From NCBI GenBank assembly GCA_019694805.1, contig JAIBBG010000005.1, positions 62,001 through 126,000 on the forward strand: 64,000 nt of DNA, given 5' to 3'. A program made the translations under genes and the position numbers. Shown piece by piece: positions 6,382 through 51,781 of this stretch. A model generated the notes under the pieces. The model saw nothing but the letters and a program-made list of their open reading frames with translations, did not search any database and was not told the origin of the DNA. The stretch is from Flavobacteriales bacterium (GTDB taxonomy: Bacteria; Bacteroidota; Bacteroidia; Flavobacteriales_D; Sanyastnellaceae). The first letter of the stretch is position 1. Every line of letters starts with the position of its first letter.

Positions 6382-8517
6382 ATGCAAGTTTTTGATGAAA
6401 AACACATCCGCAACATTGTGCTTGTGGGCGGGGCGAAAAGCGGTAAGACGACCCTTGCCGAAACCATGCTATTTGAGGCGAAAGTCATCAACCGAAGAGG
6501 TTCGGTCGAACAGAAGAACACGGTGAGTGATTTTCATGAATTGGAACACGAACGCGGTATTTCTGTGTATGCAACACCATTGCACACAGAATGGCGCGAT
6601 TACAAAATCAACATCATTGACACACCAGGTCTTGACGATTTTATTGGTGAAATCATAGCGCCATTGCGGGTTGCCGATACAGCAGTGATGCTAATCAACG
6701 CGCAACACGGCGTGGAAGTTGGATCTGAGTTGGTATGGCAGCATGTGGATCGATACCGCAAGCCTGTGATTTTCGCCATCAATCAACTTGATCATCCAAA
6801 AGCGGATTTTGAAATGACCTATAACAGTATCCGCGAGCATTTTGGTACCAATGCGGTATTGATGCAATATCCATTGAATGCAGGCGAAGGATTTAATGCC
6901 ATCATTGATTTATTGAAAATGGTGATGTATAAATATCCTGCTGATGGAGGTAAACCAGAAAAACTACCTATACCGGAACATGAACTACAAACAGCAAATG
7001 AGCTGCACAATATATTGGTTGAAAAAGCTGCAGAAAACGATGAAAGTTTGATGGAGCTGTATTTTGAAAAGGGCAATCTCGATGAAGATGAATTGAAAAA
7101 GGGTCTTCATATTGGTATGTTGCATCATGAGTTATTCCCAGTCATGTGTATTTCTGCACTGAAAAACATGGGAAGTGGCCGTTTGATGGGATTCATTGAT
7201 AATGTAGCACCTAGTGCCAATGAACTCAAGCCAGAGATTACCGAAGACGGAACAGAAATTCAATACTCCCCAACAGGTCCGGCTGTTTTGTTTGTTTATC
7301 GAACAGAACATGAAGCCAATCTGGGCAAGCTCACCTACTTCAAAGTATTAAGTGGTGAACTCCGCAAAGGAGCTCAACTCAAGAATAGCCATACCCATGC
7401 GATGGAAACCATCAATCAACTGTATGTGATGGATGGACATAACCGCAATCCAGTGGATGTGTTGAAAGCTGGAGATATTGGGGCAACACTCAAACTTAAA
7501 AACACTGATACCAACGATACACTGCATGCGTTAACAGGTGAACTGAAGATAACGCCAATCGATTTCCCGCAGCCACGCATGACGGTGGTGATCAGGGCTA
7601 ACAATAAAAAAGACGACGAAAGACTTGGAGAAGTTCTGAAGAAGATTCACGAACAAGATCCAACAGTTGAATACGAACAAAGTCGTGAATTGAAACAGCT
7701 TTTGTTGCATTGTCAGGGTGAATTGCACCTGGCGACTACCAAGTGGACACTTGAAAAAGTGTACGGCATGGATGTAGGTTTTGACAAACCCAAAATTCCA
7801 TATCGCGAAACCATTACCAAAGCTGCCAATGCTACTTACCGACATAAAAAACAAAGTGGTGGTGCCGGTCAGTTTGGCGAAGTTCATATGCGCATAGAGC
7901 CGTGGTATGAAGGAATGCCTGAACCAACTGGCTTCAACATCAGACACAAAGATGTGATTGAACTTGATTGGGGTGGAAATCTCGTCTTCTATAATTGCAT
8001 TGTTGGTGGTGTGATTGACGCGCGATTCATACCTTCTGTGCTCAAGGGAATTATGCATAAAATGGAACATGGGCCGCTAACGGGAAGTTATGTTCGTGAC
8101 ATCCGGGTGATGTTGTATGATGGAAAGATGCATGATGTAGATAGCAATGACATTTCATTTCAGATTGCAGCACAAATGGCATTTAAAGAAGCCTTTCACA
8201 ATGCACAACCTAAGTTGCTCGAGCCAATACATGAGTTGATTGTGATGGCACCAACAGAAGTAACCGGCGAAGTGATCAAGGATTTGCAACAGCGAAGAGC
8301 GATCATCATGGGTATGGATAGCATTGGTCATAACAGCAGAATCACTGCCAGGGTACCATTGGCCAATTTGCACAAATACACCACTACGCTTAGGTCTGTT
8401 TCCCAGGGTAAAGCATCATTCACATCCACATTTGTGGAATACGCTCCAGTGCCTCAGAACATTCAGGATGAAGTCATCGCTGAACACAAGCATTTGGAAG
8501 AAGTTGAATTGGCCTAA
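6382..8517 (+). CDS. EF-G paralogue (EF-G2 type) with non-canonical G domain
   Basis: The 711-residue protein has the full EF-G domain order (G domain, II, III, IV, V), for example domain IV HKKQSGGAGQFGEVHMRIEP. G motifs: P-loop GGAKSGKTT (16-24), switch I ERGIS (canonical ERGIT), switch II DTPGLDDF (80-87) and NQLD (134-137, canonical NKxD). Canonical EF-G has DTPGHVDF, whose His is needed for GTP hydrolysis; here residue 84 (bases 6631-6633, ctt) is Leu. Bacteroides thetaiotaomicron EF-G2 has been reported to support translocation without GTPase activity; this protein looks like that class. It could have a role in slow-growth translation. A tetracycline-protection protein is unlikely given the altered G domain. 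It is monocistronic, with a terminator 24 bases after the stop. Confidence 0.9.
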   Translation: MQVFDEKHIRNIVLVGGAKSGKTTLAETMLFEAKVINRRGSVEQKNTVSDFHELEHERGISVYATPLHTEWRDYKINIIDTPGLDDFIGEIIAPLRVADTAVMLINAQHGVEVGSELVWQHVDRYRKPVIFAINQLDHPKADFEMTYNSIREHFGTNAVLMQYPLNAGEGFNAIIDLLKMVMYKYPADGGKPEKLPIPEHELQTANELHNILVEKAAENDESLMELYFEKGNLDEDELKKGLHIGMLHHELFPVMCISALKNMGSGRLMGFIDNVAPSANELKPEITEDGTEIQYSPTGPAVLFVYRTEHEANLGKLTYFKVLSGELRKGAQLKNSHTHAMETINQLYVMDGHNRNPVDVLKAGDIGATLKLKNTDTNDTLHALTGELKITPIDFPQPRMTVVIRANNKKDDERLGEVLKKIHEQDPTVEYEQSRELKQLLLHCQGELHLATTKWTLEKVYGMDVGFDKPKIPYRETITKAANATYRHKKQSGGAGQFGEVHMRIEPWYEGMPEPTGFNIRHKDVIELDWGGNLVFYNCIVGGVIDARFIPSVLKGIMHKMEHGPLTGSYVRDIRVMLYDGKMHDVDSNDISFQIAAQMAFKEAFHNAQPKLLEPIHELIVMAPTEVTGEVIKDLQQRRAIIMGMDSIGHNSRITARVPLANLHKYTTTLRSVSQGKASFTSTFVEYAPVPQNIQDEVIAEHKHLEEVELA

Positions 8518-27919: not shown

Positions 27920-27993
27920 GCCGGTGTAGCTCAGCTGGCCAGAGCAGCTGATTTGTAATCAGCTGGTCGGGGGTTCGAATCCCTCCACCGGCT
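27920..27993 (+). tRNA. tRNA-Thr (anticodon TGT)
   Basis: Acceptor GCCGGTG pairs with CACCGGC; D arm GCTC/GAGC; anticodon arm GCTGA / TCAGC with loop TTTGTAA; T arm GGGGG-TTCGAAT-CCCTC. First of four tRNAs before tuf. Confidence 0.97.
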
Positions 27994-28033
27994 CTTTTTT
28001 TTTATGTTTTTCAGCCTTACAGAAAAACAATCA

Positions 28034-28116
28034 GGGGAGTTACCAGAGTGGCCAAATGGGACAGACTGTAAATCTGTTGTCTTACGACTTCGGTGGTTCG
28101 AATCCACCACTCCCCA
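28034..28116 (+). tRNA. tRNA-Tyr (anticodon GTA)
   Basis: Acceptor GGGGAGT / ACTCCCC; anticodon stem ACAGA / TCTGT with loop CTGTAAA; a long variable arm (class II) as expected for Tyr; T arm TGG-TTCGAAT-CCA. The discriminator A is followed directly by CCA in the DNA (28117-28119), unlike the other tRNAs of this cluster. Confidence 0.97.
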
Positions 28117-28173
28117 CCACAATTGACTCTTCGGGATCAGTTGTAGATCACCAGAACCAAGAATCTGGGAATT

Positions 28174-28246
28174 GCGGGAGTAGCTCAGTTGGTAGAGCAT
28201 TAGCCTTCCAAGCTAAATGTCGCGAGTTCGAGCCTCGTCTCCCGCT
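28174..28246 (+). tRNA. tRNA-Gly (anticodon TCC)
   Basis: Acceptor GCGGGAG / CTCCCGC; anticodon stem TTAGC / GCTAA with loop CTTCCAA; T arm GCGAG-TTCGAGC-CTCGT. Confidence 0.97.
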
Positions 28247-28313
28247 CAACTACAGTGCGAGTGTGGGCATGAGTGTGGTCACTCCGCACGAACACTCACT
28301 ATCTCACTGAACT

Positions 28314-28385
<72 letters not shown>

Positions 28386-28505
28386 CTGAGTTAATTTTAA
28401 GAACAAGGTCTTATAAACAGAGATCTTTACCATGTAAAATCAGTATTTCAAACAAGAAGTGCACTTTTTTAATTATCTAGATAACAAAAACAAAAACAAA
28501 CGCCA

Positions 28506-29693
28506 ATGGCTAAAGAGAATTTTGATCGTTCCAAACCCCACGTGAACATTGGAACTATTGGTCACGTTGACCACGGAAAGACCACTCTGACTGCTGCCAT
28601 CACAACTGTATTGGCTGCGGCTGGTCTTTCTGAAAAAAGAGACTTCGCGTCTATCGACAACGCTCCTGAAGAAAAAGAGCGTGGTATCACCATTAACACT
28701 GCGCACGTAGAGTACCAGACAAAAAATCGTCACTATGCTCACGTTGACTGTCCAGGTCACGCCGACTATGTAAAGAACATGGTAACAGGTGCTGCACAGA
28801 TGGACGGTGCAATCCTTGTGGTTGCAGCTACAGATGGTCCGATGCCACAAACTCGTGAGCACATCCTTCTTGGTCGTCAGGTAGGTGTTCCACGTATCGT
28901 TGTGTTCATGAACAAAGTGGACATGGTAGACGATGCTGAGCTCCTCGACCTCGTTGAAATGGAAATCCGTGAGCTTCTGAGCTTTTACGAATACGATGGT
29001 GATAACACACCAATCATCCGCGGTTCAGCCCTCGGTGGTTTGAATGGCGACCCAAAATGGGTAGAAAAAATCATGGAATTGATGGAAGCAGTTGATACTT
29101 GGATTCCAATTCCTCCACGTGAAGTTGAAAAGCCTTTCTTGATGTCAGTTGAAGACGTGTTCACGATCACTGGTCGTGGTACTGTAGCAACTGGTCGTAT
29201 CGAGCGTGGTGTGATCAACTCTGGTGATGAAGTTGATATCATCGGTTTCAACGAAGCGAAACTGAAGTCAACTGTAACAGGTGTTGAAATGTTCCGCAAA
29301 ATTCTTGACCGTGGAGAAGCTGGTGACAACGTTGGTCTCCTCCTCCGTGGTATTGAGAAGAGCGATATCCGTCGTGGTATGGTAATCGCGAAACCAGGTT
29401 CAATCACTCCTCACACCAAATTCAAAGCTGAGATCTACGTGTTGAAGAAAGAAGAAGGTGGTCGTCACACTCCTTTCCACAACAAATACCGTCCACAGTT
29501 CTACTTCCGTACAACTGACGTGACTGGAGAGATCAACCTTGAAGCTGGCCGTGAAATGGTTCTTCCAGGTGATAACGTATCGATCGAAGTGAACCTCATT
29601 GCACCAATCGCAATGGACAAAGGTCTTCGTTTCGCGATCCGTGAAGGTGGCCGTACCGTAGGTGCTGGTCAGGTGACTGAAATCATCGCGTAA
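28506..29693 (+). CDS. tuf: elongation factor Tu
   Basis: The 395-residue EF-Tu has all GTPase motifs: GHVDHGKT (19-26), switch [23 protein letters not shown], and NKVDMVDD, followed by domains II ([11 protein letters not shown]) and III ([24 protein letters not shown]). It delivers aminoacyl-tRNA to the ribosome. It lies in the conserved order tRNAs, tuf, tRNA-Trp, secE, nusG, ribosomal genes. Codon choice is strongly biased (GGT, CGT), as expected for a highly expressed gene. Two hairpins after the stop end or process its message. Confidence 0.99.
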
Positions 29694-29716
29694 TAACACG
29701 CGTGACTGATACTGGT

Positions 29717-29778
29717 GAAGGTGAAATCTTGAACAGATTTCACCTTCACTTTCACGTTTAAAGAGTAAACGTGTTTTT
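29717..29778 (+). terminator. tandem hairpins after tuf, the second with a T run
   Basis: A 13-pair perfect stem GAAGGTGAAATCT / AGATTTCACCTTC (29717-29747, five-base loop) has no T run. Six bases later CACGTTTA / TAAACGTG (29753-29773, AAGAG loop) is followed by TTTTTG, a typical terminator. Together they may end most tuf transcripts before tRNA-Trp and secE. Confidence 0.75.
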
Positions 29779-29831
29779 GAGATGAATCTTGGAAGTTGAA
29801 CAACAAGATTCTGTAAAGAAAAAATTGATAC

Positions 29832-29902
29832 ACGGGCATAGTTCAACGGCAGAATAGCGGTCTCCAAAACCGTTGATCTAGGTTCGAATCCTGGTGCCCG
29901 TG
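29832..29902 (+). tRNA. tRNA-Trp (anticodon CCA)
   Basis: Acceptor ACGGGCA / TGCCCGT; anticodon stem GCGGT / ACCGT with loop CTCCAAA; T loop TTCGAAT; discriminator G. It sits between tuf and secE, the common bacterial position. Confidence 0.97.
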
Positions 29903-50048: not shown

Positions 50049-50343
50049 AGGATTTGAGTTTGAGGAATTACAGTTCAGGCCTAAGGTGCAATTCGTGTTC
50101 ATGATAAAGACCAACAATTGATAATCGGAGTTGCATGAGATTATTTATATGAGAGTCATGCTCAAACCCGGAATATGCAGTACCTTTCTATTCTGATTCA
50201 AAATCCCTTTGAATTCACATATCCCGATTTATCTAGACAAGTTCAATCGTTTCGAGTGCTCACCGAAATCAAAGCTATGCCAGTGCGTGAGAAATCTTTG
50301 GTCTTTTAAATCTCAATATCGAAACACAATATATCATTCTATC

Positions 50344-50436
50344 TAACTTATTTTATTGCATTCATTACCCACGCGTCAGTCATATCTTCATTGGACTACC
50401 CTTTGACGTCGCAGTCCACGGATTTCAGGTTTAGAG
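50344..50436 (+). repeat. dispersed intergenic repeat, copy 4 (degenerate)
   Basis: TAACTTATTTTATTGCATTC (50344-50363) matches 8636-8655 except at two bases, and the stretch to CGGATTTCAGGTTTA aligns with 8656-8726 at roughly two thirds of positions by eye. Confidence 0.5.
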
Positions 50437-50547
50437 CAGATTGTTTTCGATGGTGATGGTTGAATTTCCAAGAATTAGCTCTGCGGTCGACAGCATTGAC
50501 ATGAGGTGTTTCGCCAGGAGATCACATGTGTTCTGATTTTTCTCTGA

Positions 50548-50790
50548 CTTTCTTTTTGCCTTGATGCAAAAAGAAAGAGAAGCGAAGCTTCGAAGAAATC
50601 AAGGCTGTTGAGAAAATCCTTGAAATCCACAGCATCTCCGGGCGACCGACCCAAACTCCTCACAGTTTTAAAAATGACAAGCAAAATCCTGATGCTTCGA
50701 ATCATGGCTGGACATTTTTAAAACTGCTCGTCTAGATGGGTCGCTCTATGCCCTACGATGCTGGGATTTCTACGGATTTTCTCAAAGGCC
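50548..50790 (+). repeat. hairpin plus nested inverted-repeat element (MITE-like or structured RNA)
   Basis: Hairpin CTTTCTTTTTGC (50548-50559) / GCAAAAAGAAAG (50566-50577) is perfect. Then the arm 50603-50636 (with GAGAAAATCC) is the imperfect reverse complement of 50758-50790 (with GGATTTTCTC). Inside it, CAGTTTTAAAAATG (50663-50676) pairs perfectly with CATTTTTAAAACTG (50713-50726), and GGGCGACC (50640-50647) with GGGTCGCTC (50738-50746). The whole can fold into one long rod with a 36-base loop. Confidence 0.7.
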
Positions 50791-50920
50791 ATCAGCACCA
50801 ACGTGAGGATTGTCGTCAAGAGATTACTGGTGTTCTCATTTTTCTCTTATCCGTTTTTTCCTTGTTTTTATGAAGTGCCGGTATAAGAAAACAAATTAGC
50901 TTGGCAATTCAATCTGGTCT

Positions 50921-50942
50921 CAATTCTTGGAATCTGGGTTAA
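50921..50942 (+). repeat. dispersed intergenic repeat end, copy 5
   Basis: CAATTCTTGGAATCTGGGTT then AA, identical to 8704-8725 except one base. Confidence 0.6.
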
Positions 50943-51013
50943 GTGGATTGTAGTTTCAAGGTATGCCACTTGGAACTTTTAAGAAAAATGGTAAAGCCAA
51001 TTTCAATACAATT

Positions 51014-51021
51014 TAGATTTG
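51014..51021 (+). promoter_or_regulatory. -7 element of the DUF4197 gene
   Basis: TAGATTTG, a perfect TAnnTTTG, ends four bases before the ATG at 51026, so the mRNA may be leaderless. Confidence 0.45.
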
Positions 51022-51025
51022 GCAC

Positions 51026-51781
51026 ATGCTGAACAACCACATTCGCTGCTACAAGTCAATAGTGATTCTGTTGACTATGGCAACATCAATAGTATCCTGT
51101 GACCCCGCTATGGTTCGCGCTGTCATGGATGGAGAAGTATACAGCAAAGCTCCATTAAGCAATGAAGAGATGATTTCAGGTTTAAAAGAAGCTTTGAAAC
51201 AAGGAACAACAAAAGCAGTGCAAACCACATCGGCCGTTGATGGCTTTTGGAAAAATCCGAAAATCAGAATACCCTTTCCAGAAAGTGCCATGAATGTGAG
51301 GAACAAAGCCATCAGTCTCGGTTTTGCGAATCAGGTGGAAACTTTTGAAGCCACCATGAACCATGCAGCAGAAAAGGCAGCAGAAAAAGCCATTCCGATT
51401 TTTGTTGATGCCATCACCAAAATGACCATCGAAGATGCATTCAACATCCTGCATGGTGACAGCATTGCGGCCACCACTTACCTAAAAAAGAATACGACGG
51501 CTGCTTTGACGTCCCAGTTTCGACCGGTTGTTCAACAAGCTATTGATCAGGTGAAGCTTACAAGCTATTGGGAACCACTTGTGACTGCATACAATTCGGC
51601 CAATATTCTCACGGGACAAAAAGCCATTGAACCAGACCTAACCGCTTATGTCACCGAGAAGGCGCTTGCTGGTCTTTTCCATTATGTCTCTGAAGAAGAA
51701 ACGCTCATTCGCAAGGATCCTAAAGCGCGTGCTACAGATATTTTGAAGAAGGTATTTGGTCAATTAGACGGTAAATCCTGA
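51026..51781 (+). CDS. DUF4197 lipoprotein
   Basis: The 251-residue protein has a lipoprotein signal with lipobox SIVSC (about residues 21-25) and the DUF4197 domain: MISGLKEALKQGTTKAV, KNPKIRIPFPESAMNV, ATMNHAAEKAAEKAIPIFVDAITKMTIEDAFNILHG, and YVTEKALAGLFHYVSEEETLIRKDP. The family is common in Bacteroidota and Proteobacteria and its function is not known. It lies after the repeat-rich gap with a promoter element just upstream of the ATG. It is followed by 97 bases and the carboxylase gene, which has its own promoter element. Confidence 0.9.
   Translation: MLNNHIRCYKSIVILLTMATSIVSCDPAMVRAVMDGEVYSKAPLSNEEMISGLKEALKQGTTKAVQTTSAVDGFWKNPKIRIPFPESAMNVRNKAISLGFANQVETFEATMNHAAEKAAEKAIPIFVDAITKMTIEDAFNILHGDSIAATTYLKKNTTAALTSQFRPVVQQAIDQVKLTSYWEPLVTAYNSANILTGQKAIEPDLTAYVTEKALAGLFHYVSEEETLIRKDPKARATDILKKVFGQLDGKS

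Follow-up and report, generated by a model that had tools for sequence, protein, structure and literature searches.

A gene-free kilobase in the genome of a Flavobacteriales bacterium holds a set of nested inverted repeats, raising the question of whether they are mobile DNA, a structured RNA or a decayed sequence that belongs to no family. The sequence-only reading had left the choice between a non-autonomous mobile element and a structured non-coding RNA. We followed it up in the whole 64,000-nucleotide stretch of DNA analysed, hereafter the window, to whose forward strand all positions given without a contig or locus name refer, and in copies and relatives of the repeats elsewhere.

The fold is part of a composite repeat

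Self-comparison of the stretch recovered the perfect 12-base hairpin that had been reported, with arms at 50548-50559 and 50566-50577. The outer arms, which the sequence-only reading placed at 50603-50636 and 50758-50790 with a length of about 33 bases, extend over 41 nt (50603-50643 and 50750-50790, 73% complementary), and the inner arms over 20 nt (50663-50682 and 50707-50726, 90% complementary); within the latter, the 14 bases claimed to match perfectly (50663-50676 and 50713-50726) do so, around a 36-nt loop at 50677-50712. The region 50540-50810 has a folding energy of -106.6 kcal/mol; 200 dinucleotide shuffles of the same region averaged -63.6 (SD 4.55), and none of them folded as well (z -9.4). 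The claim that no protein is encoded here stands as well, as no open reading frame of 80 or more amino acids lies between 50118 and 51025. At its own thresholds Rfam 15 finds only tRNAs in the window, a loose threshold over 50100-51030 returned four weak matches, all to microRNA families of eukaryotes and well short of their cut-offs, and eight loci of other copies gave one tRNA and nothing else. A cluster of five tRNA genes occupies 27920-29902 of the window.

The fold divides into two modules on the forward strand. Module H (50548-50577) has a perfect 12-bp stem and the loop CTTGAT at 50560-50565; it is predicted to be a hairpin whose loop, generally CTTGAY, pairs with a downstream RTCAAG in a pseudoknot-type structure. 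In the window this tail is ATCAAG (50598-50603), complementary to the H loop, and its last G is also the first base of module IR, a 188-bp imperfect inverted repeat GGCTGTTGAGAAAATCC...GGATTTTCTCAAAGGCC at 50603-50790 that is delimited by the fold, its arms and the lengths of its copies. The gap between H and its tail holds a 14-nt insertion with a small palindrome (approximately 50578-50592), which is private to the window copy in an alignment with six other copies.

The DNA around the fold is also repetitive, a feature that did not appear in the sequence-only reading. Positions 50455-50545 and 50757-50847 are direct repeats, 70% alike, the former being a degenerate copy of the right end of the IR and of the spacer that follows it; this spacer (50791-50847), also seen in the aligned copies, is therefore present before H as well. 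Stem and tail remnants recognised by eye after the spacer make 50846-50905 a possible degenerate second H. The composite repeat as a whole runs from 50165, with the left end AACCCGGAATATGCAG, to 50940, with the right end ...GGAATCTGGGTT. Its left limit takes the end motif at 50165, most matches to 50140-50530 starting at query positions 22-36 (about 50161-50175), and its right limit was set by eye from similarity to two other loci (L010 and L017). The segment 50140-50530 has 24 matches in its own genome counting itself (23 further).

The element is repeated in its own genome

The sequence-only reading had asked for a search of the genome for copies, and the element is not unique: a 281-bp query gave 24 matches, four of which lie on the opposite strand, are the palindrome matching itself or its copies and were not counted, leaving 20 places with the window included. 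At eight of these 20 places the copy is near-complete, matching across 198 bp or more. Three copies stand in tandem on contig C40 with a period of 464 bp, and since copies touch contig ends on C40, C94 and C85, their number in the assembly is probably too low. The IR is exactly 188 bp long in seven of the eight near-complete copies, the eighth (on contig C50) being one that our script did not delimit. In an alignment of seven copies, the two IR arms each average 92% identity and the 36-nt loop 56%. Another repeat of the same genome, at about 8180-8400 of locus L012, has the ends AACCCAAATCATGCAGTCG and CGACTGATGATTTGGGTT.

That the window sequence is a product of chance or decay, with no family behind it, could draw on its decayed state and its private insertion; we give this reading practically no credence, as it is refuted by the folding z of -9.4 and by the 20 genomic places.

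Covariation within the genome says less. Of the 57 pairs in the IR consensus fold, only three have a change in both partners, and one copy or another, mostly that on C50, breaks several of them. Because the copies are too alike, this is weak evidence for the IR arms, and the covariation proposed as a check has come out strongly for H, where it could be followed across genomes.

Hairpin H is conserved as a structure across Bacteroidota

Scanning the GTDB genome collection for the hairpin pattern matched at least 116 stretches. The organism names among the 80 matches listed are ones that we take to be Bacteroidota, except for one 'uncultured bacterium' bin and a metagenome-assembled genome labelled Williamsia (E01), a label that looks wrong. 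The scan pattern fixes the inner arm of H but not its outer arm, nor one base each of the loop and the tail. At the 122 sites listed, many of which come from few genomes, all three outer-arm positions are paired in 111 versus 22.3 expected if they were independent, and the free loop and tail bases are paired in 120 (T/A 82, C/G 38, T/G 1, C/A 1). Counted as distinct signatures, the outer arm is fully paired in 15 of 22.

A 22-mer of the hairpin occurs with at most two mismatches in 23 of the 295 genomes of the class (own included), its reversed control giving one match. Among 30 loci read, all eight inner pairs are kept in 22 and seven of eight in the other 8; an exact loop complement follows downstream in 21 and is absent in 9. 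An apical motif, CTCRCTNCGYTCA, has G/C in 19, A/T in 7 and A/C in 2 of 28 contexts and is absent from the window copy.

We compared 50 distinct H sequences with shuffles. Paired cells make up 97.2% versus 87.8% in shuffles, and double-change cells number 73 versus 20.7, neither value being reached in any of 500 shuffles; sliding the pseudoknot-type structure lowers pairing to 42-52%. Forty-eight of the 50 were collected by requiring CTTGA in the loop, TCAAG in the tail and at most three mismatches in the 22-mer (two were added by hand), so five of the six loop-tail pairs are constant by construction. With those five fixed by the way of collecting, the loop-tail helix rests on the sixth pair, which has 13 double changes and 2 unpaired cases among the 50, together with the 122-site test.

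An inverted repeat abuts the tail

We examined 94 non-redundant H sites for an inverted repeat beginning at the tail. At 39 of the 94 sites (41%), a 9-nt arm taken from within the first 16 nt has an inverted copy downstream, versus 26 of 1880 controls (1.4%); for a 7-nt arm in the same design the counts are 63 of 94 versus 308 of 1880 control windows. This exact-arm test was made after a minimum-energy test of IR closure, which gave no contrast (48/94 sites, 49/94 controls). The end sequences vary (GAATTCC, GACGGAG, GGCCCAAA, GGCTG and others) while remaining complementary, and the last G of the tail is part of the pairing in many of the 58 sites listed. In other Bacteroidota genomes, then, the pairing of H and of the IR ends is kept while the sequence changes.

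IR lengths fall into a short group of about 29-75 nt and a long group of about 110-236 nt. The window IR is of a long type, GRCT...AGGYC, shared by 15 of the 40 sites that start with GRCT, two of the 15 being own-genome copies and two others (L092 and L157) having arms of only 4 nt. At four loci in two genomes (L339, L341, L343 and L344; G271 and G242), H–IR pairs face each other convergently in a REPIN-like layout.

Elements with the same core carry inverted ends and 8-bp duplications

With the best 150 candidates per genome scored, a model of H matched at least 10 times in the window's own genome, at least 61 times in genome G173, at least 84 times in E01 (G386) and at least 45 times in Arcicella rosea (G387). 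In G173 the H–IR core (40 scored of 89 candidates) is 93-100% identical at scattered places, and aligning its flanks reveals a larger unit with the ends AACTGAGTATCCGC and GCGGATAGTCAGTT. These elements, whose ends read ACTGASTATCCGC, are about 480 bp long with terminal inverted repeats of about 13 bp and the H–IR core inside. From 45 H-bearing loci read, some of them fetched twice, we obtained 18 distinct elements with both ends (at most four mismatches); 16 loci lack one or both ends. Exact 8-bp duplications flank 9 of the 18 distinct elements, compared with a mean of 0.5 (maximum 4) for shuffled partners, and flanks identical at seven or more of eight positions occur at 11, compared with a mean of 0.9 (maximum 6). 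No duplication length other than 8 bp stands out.

The window's own genome provides a second case. A 478-bp composite at C3:6654-7132, with ends that we call type A (AATGATTGTCCGGAAT), contains the H–IR core and is flanked on both sides by ATTTTTTA, an 8-bp duplication; two other candidate pairs in this genome have no exact 8-bp duplication. In Arcicella, ten distinct elements are all 240 bp long with inverted ends of about 22 bp, and their flanks show neither duplications nor longer palindromes. At L321-L328 of Arcicella rosea (for example L321:1340-1580) the 240-bp elements have perfect inverted ends, and by eye a putative bidirectional terminator, AAAAAAGCGGTC...GACCGCTTTTTT, lies beside H. 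Element ends differ between lineages, although those of the three appear loosely alike by eye.

Several attributes of a miniature inverted-repeat transposable element (MITE) are present, some in the window and some in its class. The window element is short, non-coding (no 80-aa open reading frame) and multicopy (20 places); terminal inverted repeats are found at class level in G173, at C3:6654-7132 and in Arcicella, and target-site duplications, likewise at class level, at 9 of the 18 G173 elements and at one own-genome element. The search for target-site duplications that the sequence-only reading had suggested thus succeeded for elements with the same core and failed for the window copy: by eye, the ends of the composite 50165-50940 are only loosely alike and its flanks differ, without a target duplication. 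Target duplications are said, in the part of a source available to us, to wane with age (PMC10969869). We accordingly call the window copy a decayed MITE-like relic rather than an intact MITE.

Distribution and position relative to genes

By DNA similarity, three of 99 other genomes match the window element, over 25-30 bases, and beyond the hairpin it has no DNA-level relative among those 99. The H model at an E-value of 1e-5 matched 30 of 120 relatives, own included, with seven others of the family and none of seven of the genus, under strict filters that lose weak matches. This patchy distribution fits a mobile element with turnover. Plasmid and phage records gave no match to the window element, one G173 element matches one plasmid over 12%, and viral contigs gave no exact match to the H pattern. 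The neighbouring gene (51026-51781) matches in 12 other genomes at up to 56% protein identity and in none of seven same-genus genomes, so that no clean empty site could be shown.

Gene positions, taken from simple open-reading-frame calls, place many H near gene ends. In 14 of 20 cases in G173, H is preceded by a gene on its own strand, and in 15 of 20 the next gene lies on the opposite strand, a position between gene 3' ends; in E01, H follows a same-strand gene in 13 of 14 cases, nine of them at 6-14 nt. Across the 90 loci listed from the GTDB scan there is a slight bias (46 same-strand, 37 opposite, 7 none). The window copy is exceptional in lying between divergent genes. At L083, L089, L097, L107, L169 and other loci of E01, many H begin 6-14 nt past a stop codon. 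Reading the window copy as a terminator was not convincing, given one short minus-strand site where 0.4 would be expected.

These positions, with the strong fold and the covarying H, are what a structured RNA selected by the host would also produce, whether a 3' element or a small RNA, multicopy with mobility incidental. We consider this unlikely, although it is the foremost rival: it sits poorly with the 8-bp duplications in G173, the patchy distribution, the composite nesting and tandem copies, the private insertion in the window copy and the lack of an Rfam match. An integron attC-like recombination site would share an imperfect hairpin with conserved arms and a variable loop, and in E01 a place after stop codons; by eye, the attC core sites do not show the pairing typical of attC, and with target duplications in G173 we hold such a site to be very improbable.

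No transposase was found for the element

We found no transposase for the element. Type A ends have seven matches in the window's own genome, with no pair seen around a gene. An 8-bp target duplication points to a DDE-type transposase and is not expected of single-strand transposition; IS200/IS605-type insertion leaves no target duplication, so the 8-bp duplications in G173 do not agree with an IS200/IS605-derived element.

A REP/BIME-type repeat spread by a RAYT (an HUH, single-strand transposase) would explain multicopy hairpins, and RAYT is the obvious candidate because a Bacteroidetes subclass (2.6) has been reported, in the part of that study at hand, to have atypical flanking structures with copies elsewhere in the genome (PMC6006769). 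Y1_Tnp genes are common, occurring in 203 of 295 genomes. H was found at none of 30 Y1_Tnp loci examined and at none of six in H-bearing genomes, the latter searched with elements from G234, G271, G242 and G103 as queries, and neither result supports mobilisation by RAYT. The sole Y1_Tnp of the window's own genome (L032, G000:C11:8625-8966), a 172-aa open frame with the motif YFRKQKDYH and by eye no H nearby, resembles by this motif the non-REP subclass 1.2. With the 8-bp duplications added, the REP/RAYT explanation appears improbable.

A decayed copy of a MITE-like repeat

Taken together, we put at roughly 70% the probability that this part of the window is a composite copy, now decayed, of a MITE-like mobile repeat that is non-autonomous and has H–IR as its structural core. 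For the class of elements, the 8-bp duplications in G173 and at one own-genome element favour, as the most likely assignment, a non-autonomous transposable element (MITE) whose core is conserved in structure, so that, between the two answers of the sequence-only reading, the mobile one is well supported for the class by copies and duplications.

From their 8-bp target duplications, the G173 elements were inserted by a transposase making 8-bp staggered cuts and, as they carry none, one acting in trans. The window copy would descend from such an element, the nearest intact example of the ancestral type being perhaps the 478-bp composite at C3:6654-7132, and would later have decayed and recombined into a mosaic. 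The fold may act on one strand, as a transcript or as single-stranded DNA; most likely it would form in transcripts near the 3' ends of genes, a structure with which an insertion at such places could be tolerated.

Several observations pull against the MITE-like reading. The window composite, between divergent genes, has no visible target duplication; no transposase was found, and the seven matches to type A ends in the own genome were never seen around a gene; the Arcicella elements have inverted ends without duplications; 16 G173 loci lack one or both ends, and ends differ between lineages; own-genome IR pairs changed doubly in 3 of 57 cases, and 9 of 30 loci have no exact loop complement; and the 90 listed loci are only slightly biased in orientation.

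More tentatively, with our doubts slightly outweighing our confidence, we propose that H–IR is an undescribed, phylum-wide structural module of Bacteroidota, a pseudoknot-type hairpin abutted by an inverted repeat whose sequence is free, that MITEs with different ends carry, that is recognised by its fold rather than its sequence, either by one common factor acting in trans or as a structure in transcripts, and that has been shuffled among transposons. A short repeat is usually regarded as a sequence; here the arms, the loop-tail pairing and the inverted repeat are kept through changes of the letters, suggesting that selection acts on a fold within mobile DNA. H–IR could serve as a marker by which to search for a class of intergenic Bacteroidota DNA that is so far unannotated. 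Named hosts rich in copies, among them Arcicella rosea with its at least 45 model matches, would allow a test of what reads the fold, be it a protein or an RNA process.

Comparison with known systems

MITEs are a known kind of element. In the literature searched, covered in part and mostly at listing level, we recognised no description of this one, and a structural core common to MITEs with different ends appeared neither there nor in Rfam. The BOX and RUP repeats of Streptococcus pneumoniae are modular non-coding repeats, and by description the present element is like them in build and unlike them in phylum.

A MITE has been reported from the genome of a Cardinium endosymbiont (PMC9769881), also a member of the Bacteroidota; it differs in that its parent insertion sequence is known (ISCca4), and the parts of that report at hand mention neither a hairpin nor a duplication. 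BrickBuilt and other MITEs of Porphyromonas gingivalis (PMC4596501) come closer, being, in the portion of their description available, non-coding intergenic Bacteroidota repeats with inverted ends, predicted long stem-loops, no Rfam match and many incomplete copies (both ends in 4 of 19). BrickBuilt is set apart, by description, in being built on 23-nt tandem repeats with duplications of variable length, and that same portion includes no H-type hairpin or abutting inverted repeat. REP and BIME sequences with their RAYTs, as far as the available parts of two accounts go (PMC6006769, PMC3733652), are likewise palindromic, intergenic, multicopy repeats that sometimes form mosaics, whereas the H element stands apart from RAYTs, is a larger unit and has 8-bp duplications in G173.
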